From contig JAISNC010000093.1 in assembly GCA_031276355.1 (NCBI GenBank), positions 1 to 60,941 on the forward strand: 60,941 bases of DNA, read 5' to 3'. Shown piece after piece: positions 39,602 through 44,246 of the stretch. The notes beneath the pieces are model-generated. The model did no database searches. It saw nothing but the letters and a program-made list of their open reading frames with translations, and was not told the origin of the DNA. Source of the stretch: Odoribacteraceae bacterium. Lineage in GTDB: Bacteria; Bacteroidota; Bacteroidia; Bacteroidales; Marinifilaceae. A program made the translations under genes and the position numbers. The number at the start of each line of letters is the position of its first letter. Position 1 is the stretch's first letter.

Positions 39602-39636
39602 AAAAATAAAGAATCCCGTCATCTCTGACAGGATTC
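39602..39636 (-). terminator. pheA attenuator terminator
   Basis: On the minus strand GAATCCTGTCA pairs with TGACGGGATTC (11 bp, one G-U) around GAGA, followed by TTTATTTTT. It ends 7 bp before the pheA ATG. The 5' arm can instead pair with GGACAGGATC (39686-39677), which lies directly after the leader stop, giving a mutually exclusive antiterminator. Confidence 0.85.
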
Positions 39637-39690
39637 GCGTGTTTCACTTCGTATTTATGTTCGTTCTACCATGCCGATCCTGTCCCCTTT

Positions 39691-39741
39691 CATGTAAAAT
39701 AAAAGTAGTGGAAAGAAAAGGTATGATAAAATCGTTTCATC
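39691..39741 (-). CDS. pheL: Phe/Tyr-rich leader peptide of the pheA operon
   Basis: A 16-residue ORF absent from the ORF track: MKRFYHTFSFHYFYFT, with six Phe and three Tyr among 16 residues. Five of the six Phe codons are TTT, the form less used in the GC-rich neighbouring genes. It is preceded by a TTG-N18-TACCTTTG promoter (39770-39798) and followed by an antiterminator strand and a terminator before pheA. This is a textbook ribosome-mediated attenuator: scarcity of charged Phe or Tyr tRNA stalls the ribosome and permits readthrough. Confidence 0.8.
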
Positions 39742-39798: not shown

Positions 39799-40104
39799 GC
39801 GGTAGGGAAAATTTTTCGGGGCAGGCAGATTCAAGTAGCAAATGTGACTACAATTTTCTTTGTGCTATAAGTATTTTAGCCGCAATTTATATTGTTAAAA
39901 CGAGAATAAATCTTTGATCTATTTCCCGTTTTAACAACACGTCATCAGTATCACGTTGTTTATTTATTTTCAATCCTTTATTACTATAAAGTTGTATTTA
40001 CTAATTGAACTTACTTGATTTGATTTGTTATTTGTTATCTCCTTCTCGTGAGGTCGCGTGGGCAAGTGACTTCGCGTGTTTCTTAAAAAAAAGTAGAAAA
40101 AACT
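39799..40104. other. AT-rich intergenic region between the divergent pheA and ilv promoters
   Basis: About 300 bp without a credible ORF or RNA gene. The only structure seen is an imperfect inverted repeat at 39894-39936: GTTAAAACG with its complement CGTTTTAAC, extended by partial pairing to about 18 bp. It might be an operator or a bidirectional terminator; nothing supports either strongly. Confidence 0.4.
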
Positions 40105-40134
40105 TTGCGCGGTTGATTTCTCCATCTATATTCG
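40105..40134 (+). promoter_or_regulatory. Promoter of the ilv leader and ilvDB operon
   Basis: TTG (40105-40107), 19 bp, TATATTCG (40127-40134), seven of eight matches to TAnnTTTG. The predicted start is near 40141, about 20 nt before leader ORF 1. Confidence 0.6.
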
Positions 40135-40159
40135 CGGCTGGAAAATAAACGTAACAACG

Positions 40160-40240
40160 ATGCGACACTTTATTCTACACGTGATTCTTCTAACGGTCGG
40201 TGGTGTGATTACCGCGGGAGCGAGAAAGGCGTGTGGATAA
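40160..40240 (+). CDS. Branched-chain leader peptide 1 of the ilvDB operon
   Basis: A 26-aa ORF absent from the track, from ATG 40160 to TAA 40238-40240. Its middle, FILHVILLTVGGVI, is dense in Ile, Leu and Val and uses CTA and ATT codons that the downstream genes use little. Its last codons contain GCGAGAAAGGC (40220-40230), which is perfectly complementary to GCCTTTCTCGC (40266-40276) in the following hairpin. A ribosome stalled at the Ile/Leu/Val codons leaves that strand free to act as antiterminator; one reaching the stop covers it. Confidence 0.75.
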   Translation: MRHFILHVILLTVGGVITAGARKACG

Positions 40241-40262
40241 AGTAGATTCCAGGAAAAATCAT

Positions 40263-40300
40263 GAAGCCTTTCTCGCGCGCCGGGGAAGGCTTCTTACATT
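40263..40300 (+). terminator. ilv attenuator hairpin 1
   Basis: GAAGCCTTTCTC (40263-40274) pairs with GGGGAAGGCTTC (40282-40293), 12 bp with G-U pairs, then TTACATTT, a weak T run. The alternative pairing with 40220-40230 (11 bp perfect) disrupts it. Confidence 0.65.
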
Positions 40301-40310
40301 TAAAGAAGGC

Positions 40311-40394
40311 ATGAGACAAGGAAACTATTTGAGACCGGAGAGTTCGTTGGAGGTGATTCTAATTACCATTCTACCCGTGGTGCTACGTACCTGA
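40311..40394 (+). CDS. Branched-chain leader peptide 2 of the ilvDB operon
   Basis: A second short ORF, 27 aa, from ATG 40311 to TGA 40392-40394. It includes VILITILPVVL, again rich in Ile, Leu and Val with ATT and CTA codons. Immediately after its stop, CGGGAGAGAGG (40395-40405) can pair with CCTTTCTCCCG (40429-40439) of the next hairpin (11 bp, one G-U). This repeats the architecture of leader 1 in the same transcript, so the operon appears to have two attenuators in series. Confidence 0.7.
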   Translation: MRQGNYLRPESSLEVILITILPVVLRT

Positions 40395-40424
40395 CGGGAG
40401 AGAGGTAGTGTATATACTAAAGCC

Positions 40425-40455
40425 AGAGCCTTTCTCCCGCGCGGGGAAAGGCTCT
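40425..40455 (+). terminator. ilv attenuator hairpin 2
   Basis: AGAGCCTTT and CTCC (from 40425) pair with GGGGAAAGGCTCT (to 40455) around a GC-rich loop. It resembles hairpin 1 in sequence. No proper T run follows (CGTCATAAAT), so termination may be inefficient or factor-assisted. It ends 27 bp before ilvD. Confidence 0.5.
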
Positions 40456-40481
40456 CGTCATAAATAACAGGAAATGAAGGT

Positions 40482-42302
40482 ATGAAACAGACGTTACGAA
40501 GTGCAACTACGATGACCGGCCGCGCGATGGCCGGTGCCCGCGCCCTCTGGCGGGCCAACGGGATGAAAGAGGAACAGGTCGGCCAGCCGGTGGTCGGGAT
40601 CGTCAACTCGTTCACGCAACTGGTGCCGGGGCACGTCCACCTGCACGAGGCCGGGCAGCGGGTGAAGCGCGTGATCGAGGAGCTGGGGTGCTTTGCCGCC
40701 GAGTTTAACACGATAGCCATCGACGACGGGATCGCCATGGGACACGCGGGGATGCTCTACTCGTTGCCGTCGCGGGAGATTATCGCCGACAGCATCGAGT
40801 ACATGGCCAACGCTCATCGCGTGGACGCGCTCGTGTGCATCGGGAATTGCGACAAGGTGACTCCGGGCATGTTGATGGCGGCCGCGCGGTTGAATATCCC
40901 GACGGTCTTCGTGTCGGGCGGGCCGATGGAGGCGGGGCGTTTCCGCGGCGAGCCGGTGGACTTGATCGACGTGATGGTCAAGGGGGGCGACCCGCGCGCC
41001 GACGCGGCGACGCTCGACGCGTTGGAGCGGGTGGCCTGCCCCGGGTGTGGCTCGTGCTCGGGGATGTTCACGGCGAACTCGATGAATTGCTTGAACGAGG
41101 CGCTCGGCATGGCCCCGGTCGGGAACGGGACGCTGGTGGCCACGCACGCGGGGCGGCTGGCGCTGCTCGAGGAGGCCGGGAGGCTTGTCGTCCGGGCGGC
41201 CCGGGCGTGGTACGGGGAGGGGGATCGCTCGGTGCTCCCCCGGGGGATCCTGACGTGGGAGGCGTTCGAGAACGCGATGTCGCTGGACATCGCGATGGGC
41301 GGCTCGACGAATACGGTGCTGCACCTGCTGGCCATCGCCCGCGAGGCCGGCGTTGCCTTCACGATGAGGGATATTGACCGGTTGTCGCGGCGGGTGCCGG
41401 TGCTGTGCAAGGTGGCCCCGAACGGGCGCTACCACGTGGAGGACGTGCACCGGGCCGGCGGGATCCCGGCGATCCTCGGGGAGCTGGCGCGGGGCGGTCT
41501 CGTGCACCTGGACACGCGGCGCGTGGACGGGTTGACGCTGGAGGAGGCGATCGCCCGGCACGATATCGCTTGCCCGACGTGCGACCCGGCTTCCCGCCGT
41601 CTTTACCTGGCGGCACCTGCCGGCGTGCCGGGGAGGACGATGGGGGAGCAAACGTGCTACTACCCGGGGGCGGACATCGACCGGGAGCGCGGGTGTATCC
41701 GTTCGATGACGAACGCGTACGCGCGGGACGGCGGCCTGGCGGTGCTGTACGGCAACCTGGCCCCGGATGGCTGCATCGTGAAGAGCGCCGGCGTGGATGA
41801 AGGGATGCGCCGGTTTAGCGGCCAGGCCCGCGTGTACGAGTCGCAGGAGGAGGCGACGCGCGGCATACTCGCGGGGGAGGTGCGGCCGGGGGAGGTGGTG
41901 GTGATCCGCTACGAGGGCCCGCGGGGCGGCCCGGGGATGCAGGAGATGTTGTACCCTACGTCGTTCCTCAAGTCGCGCGGGCTGGACAAGTCGTGCGCGC
42001 TGCTCACCGACGGGCGTTTCTCCGGCGGCACGTCGGGGCTTTCCATCGGGCACGTGTCGCCGGAGGCGGCGGCGGGCGGCACGATCGCCCTGGCGCGCGA
42101 CGGCGACGTGGTGGAGATTGATATACCGGCCCGCGCGATCCGCCTGGCGGTGGACGACGGGGAGCTGGCGCGGCGGCGGGCGGCCGTCACCCGCTACGCG
42201 CCGGCCCGCCGGGAACGCCCGGTGCCCGCCTCGCTCCGGGCGTACGCCCGTTTTGTTAGCTCGGCCGACAAGGGGGCCGCGCGGGTGATCACCGAAGAGT
42301 AA
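40482..42302 (+). CDS. ilvD: Dihydroxy-acid dehydratase
   Basis: A 606-aa iron-sulfur dehydratase converting 2,3-dihydroxy acids to 2-keto acids in valine and isoleucine synthesis. Cluster cysteines are visible in [12 protein letters not shown] (near residue 124) and [17 protein letters not shown] (near 187). The N-terminal [20 protein letters not shown] and the C-terminal [19 protein letters not shown] segment are typical. Length fits the long IlvD form. It is first in an operon with ilvB 12 bp downstream and preceded by the tandem leader region. Its GC content is clearly above that of the left half of the window. Confidence 0.96.
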
Positions 42303-42314
42303 ACACGAAACGAT

Positions 42315-44069
42315 ATGGAAGAGATGATTGCAGGTAACGATTCGACGCGGGGGGATGCCCGCCGCGTGCTCTCTGGCTCGCGGGCCCTGGTGGAGACGCT
42401 GTTGCTGGAGGGCGTGGAGGTGATCTTCGGCTACCCGGGGGGGGCCATCATTCCCGTGTACGACGCGCTGTACGACTACCAGGAGCGGTTGCGCCACGTC
42501 CTCGTGCGCCACGAGCAGGGCGCGCTTCATGCCGCCCAGGGGTACGCGCGCGTCTCGTCGCGGGTGGGCGTGTGCATGGTGACCTCCGGCCCGGGTGCCA
42601 CGAACACCGTCACGGGGCTGGCGGACGCGATGGCGGATTCCACGCCGCTCGTGCTGGTGACCGGGCAGGTGGGCTCCGCGCTGCTGGGGACGAACGCGTT
42701 CCAGGAGGTGGATATCATCGCGATCACGCGGCCGGTGACGAAGTGGAATTACCAGGTGCGGCGGGCCGCCGAGATCCCGCGGGTGCTCTCCCGGGCGTTT
42801 TACATCGCCCGCAGCGGGCGGCCGGGGCCGGTGCTGGTGGACATCACGAAGGACGCGCAGGTGGAGATGGCGCCGTTCTGCCCCGGGCCGGTGCTCGGCG
42901 CGCGGGGGTACGTGCCTTACCCGCCGCCCGACGCGCGGCAGGTGGAGGCGGCGGCGGCGCTGATCCGGGAGGCCCGGCGGCCGATGGTGCTCTTCGGGCA
43001 AGGGGTCATGCTGGGCGGGGCCGAGGCGGAGTTCCGCGCGTTCGTCGAGAAGAGCGGCATGCCCGCGGCCTCCACGCTGCTCGGGTTGTCGACGCTGCCC
43101 GTCGACCACCCGCTCTACGTGGGCCTGCTCGGCATGCACGGGAATTACGCCCCGAATATCAAGAACAAGGATTGCGACCTGCTGGTGGCCGTCGGGATGC
43201 GCTTCGACGACCGCGTGACGGGTAACCCCCTCGAGTTCGGCAAGAACGCGCGGGTGATTCACCTGGAGATCGACCCGGCGGAGGTGAACAAGATCATCCG
43301 GGCGGACGTCCCGGTGGTCGGCGACGTGAAGGAGACCCTCCCGATGCTCACCGGGCGGATCGCCCCGGGGGAGTACGCCGGCTGGATCGAGGAGTTCCGC
43401 GCCTGCGCCCGGGTGGAGGAGCGGGAGACGATCCGCCCGGCCGTCCAGCCGCTGGACGACGCGCTGCACATGGGCGAGGTGGCCCGCGCCGTGAGCCGGG
43501 CGTACGACGACGACGCTATCCTGGTGACGGACGTCGGGCAACAGCAGGTGTTCGCCTGTCGCTATTTCGGCTACCGGCGGCCGCGCAGCGTGGTCACCTC
43601 CGGCGGCCTCGGGACGATGGGCTTTGGCTTGCCGGCGGCCATCGGCGCGCGGCTGGGCGCTCCCGGCCGGGAGGTGTGCCTGGTCGCGGGCGACGGCGGG
43701 TTGCAGATGACGATCCAGGAGCTGGGTACCGTCGCGCAGCTGGATATCCCGGTGAAGATCATCCTGATGAATAACGGTTACCTGGGGATGGTGCGCCAGT
43801 GGCAGGAGCTGTTTTACCACAAGCGCTACGCCTTCACCGAGATCCAGAACCCCGACTTCGGGTGCATCGCCCGCGCCCACCGCATCGCCTACCGGCTGGT
43901 GGAACGCCGCGAGGAGCTGCCCGCCGCCATCCGGGAGATGAAGGAGCACGCCGGGCCGTTCTTCCTGGAGGTGCGCGTGATGAAAGAAGAGAACGTCTTC
44001 CCGATGGTCCCCGTGGGCGCGGCCGTCGAGGATATATTATTAAACGGTGTCACGCCGCCCCTTTCATGA
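42315..44069 (+). CDS. ilvB: Acetolactate synthase large subunit
   Basis: A 584-aa thiamine-diphosphate enzyme that condenses pyruvate with pyruvate or 2-ketobutyrate. Motifs: VEVIFGYPGGAIIPVYDAL, the catalytic Glu in VRHEQGALHAAQGYAR (near residue 61), central FAD-type domain, and the ThDP-binding GDGGLQMTIQELGT followed by MNNGYLGMVRQWQ near 460-490. Length is normal. The usual next genes in Bacteroidales, the small subunit ilvN and ilvC, are not adjacent; instead a palindromic 23-bp repeat begins 17 bp after the stop. The regulatory subunit must be encoded elsewhere, if present. Confidence 0.96.
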   Translation: MEEMIAGNDSTRGDARRVLSGSRALVETLLLEGVEVIFGYPGGAIIPVYDALYDYQERLRHVLVRHEQGALHAAQGYARVSSRVGVCMVTSGPGATNTVTGLADAMADSTPLVLVTGQVGSALLGTNAFQEVDIIAITRPVTKWNYQVRRAAEIPRVLSRAFYIARSGRPGPVLVDITKDAQVEMAPFCPGPVLGARGYVPYPPPDARQVEAAAALIREARRPMVLFGQGVMLGGAEAEFRAFVEKSGMPAASTLLGLSTLPVDHPLYVGLLGMHGNYAPNIKNKDCDLLVAVGMRFDDRVTGNPLEFGKNARVIHLEIDPAEVNKIIRADVPVVGDVKETLPMLTGRIAPGEYAGWIEEFRACARVEERETIRPAVQPLDDALHMGEVARAVSRAYDDDAILVTDVGQQQVFACRYFGYRRPRSVVTSGGLGTMGFGLPAAIGARLGAPGREVCLVAGDGGLQMTIQELGTVAQLDIPVKIILMNNGYLGMVRQWQELFYHKRYAFTEIQNPDFGCIARAHRIAYRLVERREELPAAIREMKEHAGPFFLEVRVMKEENVFPMVPVGAAVEDILLNGVTPPLS

Positions 44070-44086
44070 CAGCCATGAAGCCCGCT

Positions 44087-44194
44087 GCCCGACACCGGCA
44101 CCGCCCGCGGTACGACACCGGTACAGCCTGCTGTACGACACCGGTACAGCCTGCTGTACGGCACCGGTACAGCCTGCTGTACGATACCCGTATA
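44087..44194. repeat. 23-bp palindromic tandem repeat after ilvB
   Basis: About 4.7 units of 23 bp, three of them nearly identical: GTACGACACCGGTACAGCCT plus GCT, starting at 44110, 44133 and 44156, with a degenerate copy before (44087) and a partial copy after (44179). Each junction forms a hairpin, GCTGTAC with GTACAGC around 7 nt. A further hairpin, CATGGAAG/CTTCCATG, is at 44227-44246. Confidence 0.8.
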
Positions 44195-44226
44195 TTTTCC
44201 TATATGATAAGCGTTTCTTAACGGGT

Positions 44227-44246
44227 CATGGAAGCCTCCTTCCATG
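44227..44246. terminator. Possible hairpin terminator between convergent ilvB and GH3 genes
   Basis: CATGGAAG pairs with CTTCCATG (8 bp, loop CCTC) between the converging genes. It lacks a T run on either strand, so termination function is only suggested by position. Confidence 0.3.

Follow-up and report, generated by a model that had tools for sequence, protein, structure and literature searches.

Two Putative Branched-Chain Amino Acid Leader-Peptide Attenuators in Series Upstream of ilvD in a Bacterium of the Odoribacteraceae

Results

Layout of the ilvD Upstream Region

The window, that is, the whole stretch of DNA that was analysed, is a single 60.9-kb contig from a genome of 2.8 Mb (84% complete) belonging to a termite-gut-type bacterium of the Bacteroidales, family Odoribacteraceae/Marinifilaceae. 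Upstream of ilvD, a single promoter of the Bacteroidetes type is followed by leader ORF 1 with its antiterminator/terminator set, then by leader ORF 2 with a set of its own, and finally by ilvD itself (table 1). The operon downstream of the leader, ilvD-ilvB, encodes biosynthesis of the amino acids that the leaders would sense, as is characteristic of the attenuator class.

Table 1. Positions of the features at the ilvD locus and of the divergent pheA leader within the window
Feature	Position	Strand	Description
Hairpin upstream of pheA	39636..39611	-	tail TTTATTTTTA
Strand complementary to the 5' arm of the pheA hairpin	39685..39677	-	GGACAGGAT
Phe/Tyr leader peptide upstream of pheA	39740..39690	-	MKRFYHTFSFHYFYFT
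Promoter-like site	40104..40134	+	Bacteroidetes type; TTTG (-33), 19 nt spacer, TATATTCG (-7)
Leader ORF 1	40160..40240	+	26 codons; MRHFILHVILLTVGGVITAGARKACG; Ile ATT x3, Leu CTA x2 and CTT, Val x3
Strand 1 of unit 1	40168..40181	+	pairs with 40230-40242
Strand 2 of unit 1 (antiterminator 5' strand)	40220..40230	+	GCGAGAAAGGC; overlaps the 3' end of leader 1
Terminator-like hairpin 1 (strands 3:4)	40263..40293	+	tail TTACATTT
Leader ORF 2	40311..40394	+	27 codons; MRQGNYLRPESSLEVILITILPVVLRT; core Ile ATT x3, Leu CTA x3, Val GTG x3
Strand 2 of unit 2	40395..40405	+	starts immediately 3' of the leader 2 stop codon
Terminator-like hairpin 2 (strands 3:4)	40425..40455	+	poor U-tract (CGUCAUAAAUA)
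ilvD, dihydroxy-acid dehydratase (controlled gene)	40482..42302	+	NF009103 and TIGR00110 above cut-off
ilvB, acetolactate synthase large subunit	42315..44069	+	TIGR00118 above cut-off; same direction, 12 nt past ilvD

Every element that the original prediction had placed here (leader ORFs, hairpins, and 11-nt complements) is present at its predicted position. The complements are exact, strand 2 pairing with 40266-40276 (GCCTTTCTCGC) in unit 1 and with 40429-40439 in unit 2, and none of 200 dinucleotide shuffles of the strand-2 region matches the real pairing energy in either unit (p = 0.005). The complete leader scores 3.45 sd above shuffles in folding. In addition, a 1:2 helix of 13-14 bp in unit 1 completes the 1:2, 2:3, and 3:4 set; this duplex is marginal relative to shuffles in the window (p 0.059) and stronger at three other loci (L005, L007, and L010). 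The 1:2 helix was rejected as a general feature since it is significant only in a minority of units (26/204 at p<=0.01). Many Bacteroidales leaders share a Leu-His pair just before or within the branched-chain amino acid (BCAA) core (e.g., L007, L011, L013, L047, and L134), a peptide motif that may reflect RNA pairing, CTACAC belonging to strand 1 of the 1:2 helix in unit 1 of the window.

The promoter-like site is the sole one of its kind within the ilvD leader, and nearly all tandem loci examined likewise have one such site, before leader 1. A second promoter of the TTTG/TAnnTTTG kind was sought between the units of the window leader and none was found. A sigma-70-like match (40391-40418) was rejected as a second promoter, its kind being unusual in Bacteroidetes and its position overlapping with strand 2 of unit 2. 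With a single promoter-like site upstream of leader 1, both units most likely lie in series on one transcript.

Both leaders are short ORFs rich in codons for the end products of the operon, with frame and core conserved; the BCAA core of leader ORF 1 is kept in four genomes of the window's genus. Against a background of 17,845 codons from the long ORFs of the window, Leu is encoded by CTA in 5 out of 8 cases across both leaders (2.5% in the background, p = 5e-7) and Ile by ATT in 6 out of 6 (12.6% in the background, p = 4e-6). Such rare synonyms would raise the sensitivity of the leaders to tRNA charging, and the bias may partly serve RNA pairing.

Predicted Switching

Folding of the leader with ribosome masks, a check proposed with the original prediction, predicts a classical switch for both units, for unit 2 in the nascent transcript; the masks are hard, and the foldings describe equilibrium and not kinetics. 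When the ribosomal A site in unit 1 is placed on codons at 40166-40193, the 2:3 structure forms with >=11 expected pairs at the expense of 3:4. A ribosome at the stop codon, or none at all, allows 3:4 to form with 12.9 pairs, and in the latter case strand 2 is held by the 1:2 helix. For unit 2, in nascent RNA that ends before strand 4, roughly 14 pairs of 2:3 form when the ribosome stalls at the BCAA codons between 40353 and 40380, and a ribosome at the stop codon abolishes these pairs. In the full transcript at equilibrium, 3:4 of unit 2 rivals or outcompetes 2:3 for several stall codons; unit 2 is thus closer to balance, so that the order of synthesis matters and antitermination would need 2:3 to form first. 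The geometry is the same in both units, a stall freeing strand 2 and a stop-codon ribosome masking it, and the 2:3 and 3:4 structures share strand 3 and are mutually exclusive according to both the folding predictions and covariation.

Conservation across the Bacteroidales

A comparison of ilvD upstream regions, likewise proposed at the outset, found the leaders and complementary strands conserved in relatives. A unit of the same anatomy precedes ilvD in 93 out of 118 genomes of the order (strict criterion, tandem families excluded) and is present at the ilvD loci of named Bacteroides, Phocaeicola, Alistipes, Tannerella, and Muribaculaceae. Among 204 Bacteroidales units, the 2:3 pairing is better than shuffles in 162 (p<=0.05) and the expected switching under masking is predicted in 180. 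At strand 3 positions that deviate from the consensus, Watson-Crick pairing with strand 2 is preserved in 63 out of 196 cells compared with 31.5 (sd 4.3, maximum 44 of 1000) in a control that shuffles strands 2 among units and ignores phylogeny. A class-wide search outside the Bacteroidales revealed no ilvD near enough for comparison.

Distribution and Origin of the Tandem Pair

In the window's family (Marinifilaceae/Odoribacteraceae), 37 genomes bear ilvD and 31 of these have two units; 28 were assigned by the strict criterion and three by reading (L004, L005, and L225). Odoribacter splanchnicus (G052) is among the carriers; in strain DSM 20712, leader 1 spans 329-251 nt ahead of ilvD and leader 2 ends 105 nt ahead of it. 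Five family members have a single unit, namely G058 and the two genomes each of g5 (among them O. laneus) and g15, and one has none (G024). In family f117 the pair is present in all four ilvD-bearing genomes. Well-supported branches of an ilvD tree with 55 rows force at least four changes of the tandem label, gains being indistinguishable from losses on this gene tree, and control by a single switch seems from these sequences to have been doubled repeatedly. On the ilvD tree the closest sister genus is that of G024, whose ilvD locus (L006) lacks any leader and has a promoter-like site a short distance upstream of the gene (TATATCTTTG); there the attenuator was apparently lost. Three further tandem calls (L116, L132, and L061) were discarded as false second matches, the upstream "unit" resembling the end of a neighbouring gene with its terminator or a hairpin that lacks a U-tract.

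The two hairpins of the window are alike, as had been noted. This likeness, from which an origin by duplication was drawn, is indistinguishable from likeness to the consensus of the order: most Bacteroidales units have GCCUUUCUC arms and BCAA cores in common, and each unit of the window also resembles this consensus, so that one unit may or may not derive from the other. In O. splanchnicus, leader 1 resembles the single leader of O. laneus (LSLHL...) and leader 2 the common Bacteroidales form (IIVINILLVVL).

The codon content of the two leaders differs between lineages. Codons for Ile, Leu, and Val all occur in both leaders of the window and of Odoribacter. The averages for Marinifilum/Labilibaculum are 2.4 Leu in leader 1 and, in leader 2, 1.2 Leu beside 7.8 Ile and 3.9 Val; the Leu of leader 2 is mostly at codon 2, leaving a core nearly free of it. 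With this divergence, leucine shortage would open the first gate and not the second.

Terminators and U-Tracts

The weak T runs behind both hairpins, named as the main caveat of the original prediction, are real: the U-tract of the window is moderate in unit 1 (T 7/11) and poor in unit 2 (3/11). Other hairpins within the window have good T-runs, which indicates that the poor tract of unit 2 is no general habit of this genome. The second U-tract of O. splanchnicus is also partly poor, and decay of this tract appears to have affected the window's genus and, to some extent, O. splanchnicus. Long T-runs mostly follow both hairpins in Marinifilum, Labilibaculum, and f117, with perfect U-tracts on both terminators in the first two, and both hairpins therefore resemble plain intrinsic terminators there. 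The caveat is thus answered in general by the many relatives with perfect U-tracts on both units, and it stands for unit 2 in the window. Hairpin 1 can be regarded with fair confidence as a predicted terminator; the same role is assigned to hairpin 2 with less confidence, as its own U-tract is poor and the assignment leans on relatives.

Two alternative readings of unit 2 follow from its tail. It is unlikely, although deserving of weight, that unit 1 is the only working transcription attenuator here and that unit 2 has lost its terminator and is vestigial, or acts only as a pause or backup. Such a loss would fit the tail of hairpin 2, which has 5-7 T in the three remaining genomes of the genus against the lower count here, while hairpin 1 keeps 6-9, and a unit can evidently be absent, as O. 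laneus, g15, and G058 have one and G024 has none. However, the start and BCAA core of leader 2 and a strand 2 complementarity of 10-13 bp are kept in all four genomes of the genus, leader 2 retains its rare codons, and hairpin 2 is still very strong (-22.7 kcal/mol), all of which a vestige would be expected to lose. It is quite unlikely that unit 2 works by a mechanism other than an intrinsic terminator, for example Rho or ilvD translation, in a two-mechanism tandem in which transcription is controlled first. A poor U-tract beside an otherwise intact ORF/2:3/3:4 anatomy would fit such a mechanism, and the mgtCBR attenuators likewise work without intrinsic terminators (PMC3641672), but hairpin 2 stops 26 nt short of the ilvD ATG and leaves the start uncovered, and a full unit 2 U-tract is found in Marinifilum/Labilibaculum, G050, and family f117, most simply explained by an ancestral form that was an intrinsic terminator. 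Two complete transcription attenuators in series remain the preferred reading for the window.

Controls and Riboswitch Searches

AT-rich DNA often yields BCAA-rich ORFs, yet a purely random origin of the short ORFs and hairpins, with no regulator present, has a negligible probability and is already refuted for the anatomy: a strict unit detector, which requires a BCAA-rich ORF starting with ATG and a stable hairpin behind it, matches 171 out of 238 real upstream regions compared with 5/693 shuffled and 6/231 reverse-strand regions, two units never occur in any of these control regions, and conservation across the order and codon bias add to the case. In Firmicutes, ilv operons are under T-box control, and T-boxes are also known in tandem. 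A T-box or metabolite riboswitch in place of a leader peptide is nevertheless extremely improbable here, since no Rfam family, the T-box covariance model included, was found in the whole window at gathering or relaxed thresholds (the best matches to the leader are noise), no conserved tRNA- or ligand-binding core was seen in the leaders, and the BCAA codons are conserved in frame.

Neighbouring Observations

The pheA gene (prephenate dehydratase) on the minus strand is preceded by a Phe/Tyr leader peptide, a complementary strand, and a hairpin (table 1), and the region 39740-39611 (-) resembles a single aromatic attenuator that is divergent from the ilvD one. The longest-ORF start of pheA falls within the hairpin; the true start is probably a later ATG (MKRVAIQGG).

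In relatives, ilvN (acetolactate synthase small subunit) lies close behind ilvB and is followed by ilvC. Among the genomes of the window's genus, which are 64-84% complete, only a weak 97-aa remnant of ilvN was found (G019:C162), and one genome (G000) carries ilvC on a separate contig (G000:C23 was noted for the ilvB-downstream region). The window contains a short imperfect repeat at about 44070-44240, just past ilvB at the expected place of ilvN, with two frames (RHRHRPRYDTGTACCTTPVQPAVRHRYSLLYDTR on the plus strand and VPVPYSRLYRCRTAGCTGVVPRAVPVSG on the minus strand). If the loss of ilvN is real, the feedback subunit is gone and attenuation would be a more important control.

Discussion

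Ribosome-mediated attenuation is itself a known mechanism. In enterobacteria, BCAA leader peptides control ilv genes in this way upstream of ilvGMEDA and ilvB, each as a single unit in another phylum and with another sequence than in the window. In the open-access literature (subscription journals were mostly outside this scope, and absence is not proof), neither BCAA leader peptides before ilvD of the Bacteroidales nor two complete same-signal leader-peptide attenuators in series were found to be described, and we know of no description of the latter.

The closest parallels before ilvD itself are found in Firmicutes. The Rli60 leader of Listeria monocytogenes, where ribosome-mediated attenuation was demonstrated by mutation, likewise places a leader peptide with many BCAA codons ahead of ilvD and has a 2:3 antiterminator that competes with a 3:4 terminator, but it is a single unit with a 13-residue peptide, and the likeness drawn here is one of organization (PMC5864092). 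The attenuator proposed for ilvD of Staphylococcus aureus shares the Ile/Leu-codon leader peptide and terminator, but it has one unit and its proposed antiterminator motif pairs with the poly-U tail and not with the 5' arm of the terminator (PMC5794164). For Bacteroidota, the papers found go no further than to mention sORFs reminiscent of leader peptides in B. thetaiotaomicron (PMC7366714) or clues for leader-peptide attenuation in F. psychrophilum (PMC9723704).

The nearest precedent for the tandem is the mgtCBR leader of Salmonella, in which two leader ORFs and two serial attenuator-like structures act independently in one leader RNA (PMC3641672). The window has the same two leader ORFs and two attenuators in one leader RNA, given its single promoter-like site. 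The mgtCBR units differ in sensing different signals (ATP and proline), in having no intrinsic terminators, and in controlling a nonbiosynthetic operon (PMC3641672); in the window, the same three amino acids are encoded in both leaders. The best guide to the effect of doubling is the pseudo-cooperative tandem riboswitches (e.g., tandem TPP), which also place two independent same-signal sensor/terminator units in series and for one ligand give a steeper, more "digital" response, although the ligand is sensed by aptamers and not by ribosome stalling (PMC9481103).

Codon bias, masked folding, conservation, order-wide 2:3 covariation, and the single promoter all support the original prediction of serial ribosome-mediated attenuators for Ile, Leu, and Val, and the ilvDB leader RNA very probably comprises a series of two complete transcription attenuators, both ribosome-mediated and served by one promoter. 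Within each unit, a ribosome would trail the RNA polymerase through the short ORF. If the charged tRNA for Ile, Leu, or Val runs short, the ribosome would stall on the ATT, CTA, or GTG codons and leave strand 2 free to form the antiterminator with strand 3, allowing the polymerase to continue. With charged tRNAs available, the ribosome would reach the stop codon and cover strand 2, the 3:4 hairpin would form, and transcription would stop; 3:4 would likewise be favoured if no ribosome were present. We infer that the leaders are translated, that termination takes place in vivo, and that ilvDB output approximates the product of two readthrough probabilities. Since the polymerase must pass twice when the units are in series, this roughly multiplicative output would reduce basal expression and steepen the response to shortage. 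Of the earlier suggestion that serial attenuators sharpen the response, the serial arrangement is supported, and by analogy with tandem riboswitches the doubling probably makes the response sharper.

A broader reading is offered tentatively, at somewhat less than even confidence: serial leader-peptide attenuators may represent a recurrent logic in the Bacteroidales, in which equal units form a steep multiplicative switch and the diverged units of Marinifilum/Labilibaculum an AND gate, and the second unit of the Odoribacter branch may terminate differently. If the AND gate is true, leucine shortage alone cannot open the operon of Marinifilum/Labilibaculum. These proposals are directly testable, as O. 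splanchnicus, Marinifilum, and Labilibaculum carry the tandem and O. laneus a single unit. Leader-peptide attenuation is barely documented in Bacteroidota, and the present data point to a BCAA attenuator upstream of ilvD across the majority of the order. The doubled form, which most members of one family retain and which was acquired or lost on at least four occasions, would constitute a natural experiment on the use of two near-identical decision points to a cell.
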